From NCBI RefSeq assembly GCF_011761565.1, contig NZ_JAASRM010000001.1:2170139-2234138 (forward strand): a stretch of 64,000 nucleotides of DNA, read 5' to 3'. The notes under the pieces were generated by a model that was given only the letters and a program-made list of their open reading frames with translations, did no database searches and had not been told where the DNA came from. Shown here in pieces: positions 11,602 through 14,014 of the stretch. This DNA is from Rhizomicrobium palustre. GTDB taxonomy: Bacteria; Pseudomonadota; Alphaproteobacteria; Micropepsales; Micropepsaceae. Each line of letters begins with the position of its first letter. The stretch's first letter is position 1. The translations under genes and the position numbers were made by a program.

Positions 11602-11713
11602 GTCAAAACCTTAAGGGACGAGTCGGTCGGTGAGCTACTCTATCGCCCCAAGGTGCTGGGGCTCCACGGGAAACTGCCCTTCCTTCCGCCGCAATGGAGC
11701 GCTAAGAGGGGAT

Positions 11714-12361
11714 ATGCGCCGTATCGCCAAAATCCTGGTTTTAGCTACAGCTCTGGTTGCAGGCATGGGGGCCGGACAAGCCCCGCCGCCGCGCCATATC
11801 GAATTCTCCGCCGAAGACCGCGCCACCCTCGATAAGATCAGCGACTACCTGAACGGGACACGCAGCTTGCAGGGCGATTTCGTCCAGATCGCCCCCAATG
11901 GCGGTATGGATCAGGGCAAGTTCTATCTCGTAAAGCCCGGCAAGATTCGCTTCGAATACCGCCCGCCAAGCCCGCTTCTGGTCGTCTCCGATGGCCGGAC
12001 TGTGGGGGTCTTCAACAGTAAGCTGAAGACGGTGGATCGCTACCCGCTTTCGTCGACACCGCTCGATCTGCTCTTGGGCGACAAGATCGATCTGCGCAAG
12101 AACGACGCCATCCTTGCGGTGCAGCATCGCGATGGAAATATCATAGTGGAAGCGCGCACCGCCACCAAGCGCACTAAGGCAAATATCGCCATCACCTTCT
12201 CGGAAAGCCCGCTGGCACTGCGCCAATGGACCATCATTGACGATCAGGGCCTGCCCACCACGGTGGCGGTGCGTAATCTGCAAGACGGCGGTTCGATTAG
12301 CGATCAGCTTTTTGTGCTGCGCGACGCCAAACCGGCTGTGGGCATCAAATCCAGGGATTAA
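11714..12361 (+). CDS. LolA-type outer-membrane lipoprotein carrier family protein
   Basis: A 215-residue periplasmic protein with a signal peptide (MRRIAKILVLATALVAGMGAGQA). The mature part has the LolA/YbbC half-barrel landmarks: LNGTRSLQGDFVQIAPNG, GKFYLVKPGKIRFEYRPPSPLLVVSDGRTV and DLLLGDKIDLR. LolA carries lipoproteins from the inner to the outer membrane. Whether this is the sole LolA or a paralogue cannot be decided here, so I give no symbol. The ATG at 11714 after AAGAGGGG is preferred to a start at 11630, which would add 28 non-signal residues. Only 12 bases separate it from the next gene. Confidence 0.82.
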   Translation: MRRIAKILVLATALVAGMGAGQAPPPRHIEFSAEDRATLDKISDYLNGTRSLQGDFVQIAPNGGMDQGKFYLVKPGKIRFEYRPPSPLLVVSDGRTVGVFNSKLKTVDRYPLSSTPLDLLLGDKIDLRKNDAILAVQHRDGNIIVEARTATKRTKANIAITFSESPLALRQWTIIDDQGLPTTVAVRNLQDGGSISDQLFVLRDAKPAVGIKSRD

Positions 12362-13758: not shown

Positions 13759-13829
13759 TTTCCGCAGCGTGACGGAATTGCCACTGTCCATTTAAAATTT
13801 GTTATCTACGTGCGCCACAAAGAAAAAAC

Positions 13830-13858
13830 TTGAAAACTGTGGCCCATTTGCATAAGTT
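13830..13858 (+). promoter_or_regulatory. Sigma70-type promoter of the candidate sRNA
   Basis: -35 TTGAAA (13830-13835), a 17-base spacer, and -10 TAAGTT (13853-13858). The predicted start near 13865 coincides with the first base of the first long hairpin. Confidence 0.5.
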
Positions 13859-13864
13859 ATCTCT

Positions 13865-14014
13865 TGTGAAGAGATGGCGCCCGGCAACGCACTGCCCCCC
13901 CGCTCGCAAGCCGGGTCCCTCTTCACAGCAGTGTCGGTCATCCCCTCCCGGCACTCGCGCGTAACGGCGCAAACGACGCCCGGTTGGCCCCCCCGACCGG
14001 GCGTCTGTCGTTTT
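13865..14014 (+). ncRNA. Candidate small RNA with three C-rich hairpin loops
   Basis: The intergenic space between the MOSC and phosphatase genes folds into three consecutive hairpins. Hairpin 1: TGTGAAGAG/CTCTTCACA with an inner CCCGGC/GCCGGG stem (13865-13927) and a loop holding seven C. Hairpin 2: AGTGTCGG/CCGGCACT (13930-13955) with CCCCTCCC at the loop. Hairpin 3: GACGCCCGGT/ACCGGGCGTC (13975-14005), again with seven C in the loop, then TGTCGTTTT as a possible terminator. A promoter-like pair lies just upstream. C-rich loops are the pairing sites of several bacterial sRNAs that mask G-rich ribosome-binding sites. No known RNA family was recognised. Alternative: hairpin 3 is only the terminator of the convergent phosphatase gene. 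Confidence 0.5.

Follow-up and report, generated by a model that had tools for sequence, protein, structure and literature searches.

RusT (CCNA_R0199) of Caulobacter crescentus is a 118-nt Hfq-bound sRNA encoded between lolA and xth, and the accessible text of its report (PMC11005374) describes four stem-loops, the second of which carries the seed in its loop (nt 45-57, including C53), and Hfq bound at stem-loop 3. According to the same text, RusT is induced by iron starvation and by zinc, NtrX is found on its promoter as a proposed repressor, and the loop represses TonB-dependent receptors, as demonstrated by compensatory mutation with two reporters; the sRNA is described there only in Caulobacteraceae. 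Other sRNAs also use C-rich loops. As far as the consulted sections of the respective reports go, alphar14/NfeR1 (cuckoo RNA) combines hypervariable stems with ultraconserved C-rich loops (PMC10746234, PMC7143759, PMC3927594), GsrN pairs with G-rich targets through a loop of six tandem C (PMC5869019), and the CCCC loop of CcnA pairs with GGGG near start codons (PMC8959179).

An RNA gene between MOSC and a phosphatase-like gene

The window, that is, the whole 64,000-nt stretch of Rhizomicrobium palustre DNA under analysis, presents the gene order gpsA (minus strand), lolA, peptidase C26, MOSC, the RNA and a phosphatase-like gene (minus strand). The initial annotation had proposed here an independent sRNA gene with a promoter-like pair, three hairpins, a T-tailed terminal hairpin and C-rich loops suited to G-rich ribosome-binding sites, and our analysis bears out this proposal: there is a genuine gene here for a small, probably regulatory RNA with deep conservation among alphaproteobacteria, whose features are collected in Table 1.

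Table 1. Features of the RNA locus, in coordinates of the window
Feature	Position	Strand	Evidence or remark
lolA, synteny anchor 1.5 kb upstream of the RNA	11630..12361	+	Pfam PF03548, E 2.9e-31
Candidate operator, degenerate inverted repeat GTGACGG..CTGTCCAT	13769..13791	+	Conserved spacing
-35 box TTGAAA (TTGMAA in relatives), preceded by an A-tract	13830..13835	+	
-10 element TGCATA	13849..13854	+	Conserved in relatives; TACATA in 1/29
sRNA gene, predicted transcript of ~150 nt	13861..14013	+	Extent taken from the model R1 match; 5' end placed according to the promoter
Hairpin 1, long stem in two parts with covarying pairs	13864..13928	+	Folds, covariation
Hairpin 1 apical loop GCACUGCCCCCCCGCUCGC, near-invariant, second putative seed	13889..13907	+	
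Hairpin 2, corresponding to stem-loop 2 of RusT	13930..13955	+	Covariation, model R2 match
Putative seed AUCCCCUCCCGG, common to lolA-xth gap RNAs	13940..13951	+	
Small 4-bp hairpin GCGC-GUAACG-GCGC, at the position of RusT stem-loop 3	13957..13970	+	Folds
Rho-independent terminator with T-rich tail	13975..14014	+	Hairpin 13975-14005 called terminator-like

Runs of seven C occupy the loops of hairpin 1 (13895-13901) and of the terminator (13988-13994), and the loop of hairpin 2 holds CCCCTCCC (13942-13949), so all three loops contain the C-rich sequence that had been reported. The stems are also as initially described, with the addition of the small hairpin that had not been listed separately, which gives four hairpins, preceded by a fixed promoter and ending with a terminator. 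The predicted fold has a minimum free energy of -81.6 kcal/mol (z = -5.1), a stability equalled by none of 200 shuffled sequences. A small open reading frame within the RNA stretch was rejected, as neither its frame nor its start is kept among 29 relatives, and no conserved ORF was found inside the RNA in this set.

The promoter-like pair is the one retained in relatives, where the TTG of the -35 box lies 19 bp before the -10 sequence [TA][GA]CATA in 29/29 promoters; an alternative pair from the promoter scan (13769/13798) was dropped. Further upstream, an A+T-rich element with CTGTC(C)A(T) stands 45-46 bp before the -35 TTG in 26 of the 29 promoters and, as CTGTC(C)AT, 34-35 bp before it (one helical turn less) in 2, with the remaining promoter unclear; these distances were corrected by hand where the script had picked the wrong TTG. 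Among the promoters of loci L001-L030, the element takes in some relatives the form of a clean inverted repeat, TGACA-N10-TGTCA. The upstream repeat looks like a regulator site and is listed as a candidate operator; for NtrX, which occupies the RusT promoter in Caulobacter, the passages searched give no binding motif.

Invariant loops on covarying stems

BLAST searches with the 185 bases of the element recovered it from 32/61 genomes, corresponding to the window's own and 31 of 36 from the same genus, and from 0/24 genomes belonging to other families of the class. Alignment A1 (n = 29) was obtained from thirty oriented loci after the removal of one cut by a contig end (L017). All 29 sequences share the same fold plan, in which the loops GCACTGCCCCCCCGCTCGC and ATCCCCTCC are near-invariant and the stems vary; the hairpin 1 loop contains seven C in 26 sequences and six in the other 3.

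The compensatory changes that the initial annotation had named as a check are found in 17/32 pairs, distributed over the inner stem of hairpin 1 (6/7), hairpin 2 (4/7) and the terminator (7/12); the outer stem 1, misaligned in A1, was left out of these pair counts. Overall, 96.2% of the cells pair, and the covariation score of 0.331, compared with 0.172 in shuffles, was reached by none of 500 shuffled alignments, with slid controls at or below 0.086. Covariation evidence is absent in A1 for the small hairpin because 3 of its 4 pairs are invariant. In several relatives the C-run in the terminator loop is altered or missing; therefore, conservation of the C-rich loops is confined to hairpins 1 and 2, and the idea of three seed loops is unsupported.

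These data also bear on the reading that no RNA gene exists here, and that chance hairpins accompany a strong terminator in the gap separating MOSC from the phosphatase-like gene, which is convergent with it. The terminator stem is indeed strong and also scores weakly on the minus strand, but a promoter at fixed spacing, invariant loops on covarying stems and an RNA that is conserved where the neighbouring genes differ make this reading hardly credible.

Covariance model R1 extends the distribution of the RNA to 92/96 genomes of the window's order, including 59/60 of those of good quality, and to 7/7 genera. In the class-wide sample, R1 reaches E <= 0.001 in 55/385 genomes, of which 50 lie beyond the order. 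Most of the 25 best loci from these more distant genomes follow the same plan, and a similar C7/C8 loop is found in distant families, with five distant loci (L134, L135 and L140-L142) lacking the C7 hairpin. Additionally, scanning named genomes for a pattern retrieved 55 stretches, including L067 from Rhizomicrobium electricum DSM 21034, whose contig carries the RNA, and many from Alphaproteobacteria MAGs, and R1 matched 52 of them, all except L034, L058 and L070. A further RNA-like element, L237 (G136:C16:68590-68732), carries C-runs of at least 6 in three hairpin loops and has neither lolA nor xth within 2.5 kb.

The lolA-xth locus and the link to RusT

In distant families, the RNA is found in the order ftsK, lolA, RNA, uncharacterised protein, xth. 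One or both of lolA and xth lie within 1.5 kb of the RNA at 23/25 of the best loci outside the order and within 2.5 kb at 16/27 of the weaker ones, which corresponds to 39/52 class-wide places outside the order, and none of these genes occurs in any of 80 control 5-kb segments taken from the window's genome. Three weak second matches inside the order (L246-L248) are without this synteny. The uncharacterised protein between the RNA and xth has ~215 amino acids (L136:1745-2398, L139:1733-2371) and no match in Pfam or NCBIfam.

The position between lolA and xth is that of RusT, and the RNAs of family f63 represent it in our comparisons. This family is probably Caulobacteraceae, because the HfaB holdfast model reaches its highest scores there and lolA and xth directly flank the RNA. 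As for the markers themselves, RF01867 (CC2171) was discarded as a Caulobacterales marker for not being diagnostic, and HfaB was used instead. CC2171 gives E <= 0.001 in 84/385 sampled genomes (e.g. G082, G088), 13 of them over the cut-off, and its matches include two genomes of the window's genus and not the window's own. Homologs of the HfaB holdfast anchor over the curated cut-off are encoded in the window's genome (G000:C1:2089350-2090105) and in its relatives.

At 17 of the 20 lolA-xth loci read in f63 there is a hairpin RNA with ATCCCC, the exceptions being L305, without the RNA, and L309 and L310, without the seed; a further xth locus (L254) is not beside lolA. In locus L299, which we would guess to be Caulobacter, the RNA measures 118 nt, with CCUAUCCCCUCCC at nt 45-57 and a C at position 53, when counted by hand from the likely start; this agrees with the description of RusT, with a length match that is not fully independent because this start was chosen from the promoter. 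Model R2, built only from the 17 f63 lolA-xth gap RNAs, finds 13930-14006 as its sole significant match in the window (E = 2.6e-5; next match, 0.28), and, with a limit of E <= 0.1, it recovers 64 of another 71 loci, the three chance stretches being among the seven misses. Within this match, AUCCCCUCCCGG sits where the described seed of RusT lies (nt 45-57, C53).

Compared with the published description, the window RNA shares with RusT four stem-loops of which the last is the terminator, a C-rich seed in the second loop, the lolA-xth locus in its relatives and, by complementarity, TonB-dependent receptors as the target class. Unlike RusT as described, it is ~150 nt long, the figure of 118 nt characterising the Caulobacter RNA and not the whole family; its long hairpin 1 carries an invariant C7 loop that is absent from Caulobacteraceae-type RusT; and it lies between MOSC and the phosphatase-like gene, 1.5 kb from lolA on the same strand, with xth not adjacent. 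We conclude from these sequence comparisons that the window RNA is a RusT-family sRNA, longer than RusT and with a second conserved C7 loop.

The absence of a known family, as first proposed, holds for Rfam but is in essence mistaken, given this relationship to a published sRNA. No Rfam 15 family exceeds its gathering score in the window, and the relatives also stay below threshold. The best sub-threshold match, P15, obtained 19.4 of 70 bits and was rejected, as were Rhizobiales-2, tfoR and anti-hemB, all of them far below threshold and by eye matching mainly the terminator and the C-rich loop. GsrN resembles the window RNA in its loop but, in the text available to us (PMC5869019), is driven from a sigma-EcfG promoter and is usually found beside the general stress locus, whereas the window RNA has the promoter TTGMAA-TGCATA and lolA, peptidase C26, MOSC and the phosphatase-like gene as neighbours. 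CcnA, also similar in its loop, is set apart by its locus, since the sections consulted (PMC8959179) place it at the replication origin with a CtrA box in its promoter. We found no further prior report of the window RNA in the open-licence PMC literature.

G-rich ribosome-binding sites at TonB-dependent receptor genes

Across the window's genome, long exact complements to the hairpin 1 loop are not in excess (59 compared with 48 in the reversed control), and GGGAGGGGATGA with at most one mismatch has 25 sites compared with 5 in the reversed control. Few of these 25 looked like real starts, and therefore the receptor genes were examined. The genome contains 65 matches to the Plug domain of TonB receptors (PF07715; L311-L375), whose start codons were picked by signal-peptide likeness, blind to the ribosome site.

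In the interval -22..-3, GAGGGG is present at 12/65 receptors, 1/135 secreted-protein controls and 1/312 of all controls, and AGGGG at 21/65, 8/135 and 13/312, respectively. The strength of the Shine-Dalgarno (SD) sequence is generally higher at receptors (GGAGG-like in 18/65 vs 12/135) and is a partial confounder; when only genes with any purine SD are compared, GAGGGG is found at 12/53 receptors vs 1/59 controls. L321, L350, L351 and L374 are among the receptor genes carrying such a site. Receptors give lower duplex energies with the hairpin 2 loop (median -13.7 vs -11.0, p 1e-3), a difference reached by 1/100 shuffled seeds. The hairpin 1 loop is weaker, with 8/60 shuffled seeds as good. 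The broad translational regulator first envisaged is narrowed, since it is mainly TonB-dependent receptor genes that carry the G-rich sites. In a second genome of the genus (G028), where 43 of 48 receptors were usable, GAGGGG was found at 10/43 vs 1/43 and AGGGG at 20/43 vs 3/43, with shuffled seeds as good in 10/60. In G403 (family f121) there are only 7 receptors, and four of them have no G-run before the start.

The explanation that we favour, with considerable confidence, is a trans-acting sRNA of ~150 nt, homologous to RusT, whose hairpin 2 loop would block receptor translation. The sRNA would be made from its dedicated promoter, under an operator-like upstream element, and would end at its own terminator. 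Its hairpin 2 loop, AUCCCCUCCC, may pair with ribosome-binding sites rich in G (GAGGGG/AGGGG), above all those of TonB-dependent receptor mRNAs, and so block their translation, probably with Hfq and probably under iron scarcity or envelope stress, and the invariant C7 loop of hairpin 1 may widen the target set. The window RNA would thus probably shut off outer-membrane nutrient receptors through pairing of a C-rich loop with G-rich starts.

An improbable alternative is a general anti-Shine-Dalgarno sRNA resembling alphar14/NfeR1, not descended from RusT and acting with both C-rich loops on many mRNAs. It would account for a hairpin 1 loop as conserved as that of hairpin 2 and for a design that, according to the parts of those reports consulted, is shared: variable stems, invariant C-rich loops, a conserved sigma70 promoter with an upstream motif and pairing at translation starts, which for the window RNA is a proposal. 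However, the loop motif CCUCCUCCC, described in each loop of alphar14/NfeR1, was looked for in the window sequence and is absent, its loops being CCCCCCC and AUCCCCUCCC, with another locus and a fourth small hairpin. Moreover, no Rfam family passes, locus and seed tie the window RNA to RusT, and the G-run sites cluster at TonB-receptor genes instead of being distributed across the whole gene set.

Slightly less probable still, the C-rich loops could bind a protein or titrate an RNA, the G-rich receptor starts being read by another sRNA, for example one of the alphaR8/SisA family. As far as the literature text at hand describes, alphaR8 sRNAs target TonB-receptor mRNAs in Caulobacter, where sponge RNAs also exist, and the hairpin 1 loop is without specific target enrichment in the shuffled-seed and complement counts given above. 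Against such a role stand the hairpin 2 shuffles and the repression by the RusT loop described in PMC11005374. With alphaR8 sRNAs targeting receptors as well, more than one RNA may make use of the G-runs.

Returning to the RusT-family reading, tracing RusT across many families would turn it into a class-wide sRNA family, one whose member in the window is detected by no Rfam 15 model, and would tie the post-transcriptional regulation of nutrient uptake at the outer membrane to an Alphaproteobacteria-wide locus. The family offers a testable seed, a second invariant loop and, as putative target class, the TonB-dependent receptors, of which a genome has dozens. We tentatively suggest, as a possibility on which we place rather limited confidence, that an ancient sRNA of the ftsK-lolA-xth locus, present across the alphaproteobacterial class, gave rise to RusT as a late, reduced form, and that its fuller form, kept by the window's order and by several further families, possesses two separate invariant C-rich seeds, CACUGCCCCCCCGCUCGC and AUCCCCUCCC. 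If so, one loop would control the receptors and the other a second set of targets.
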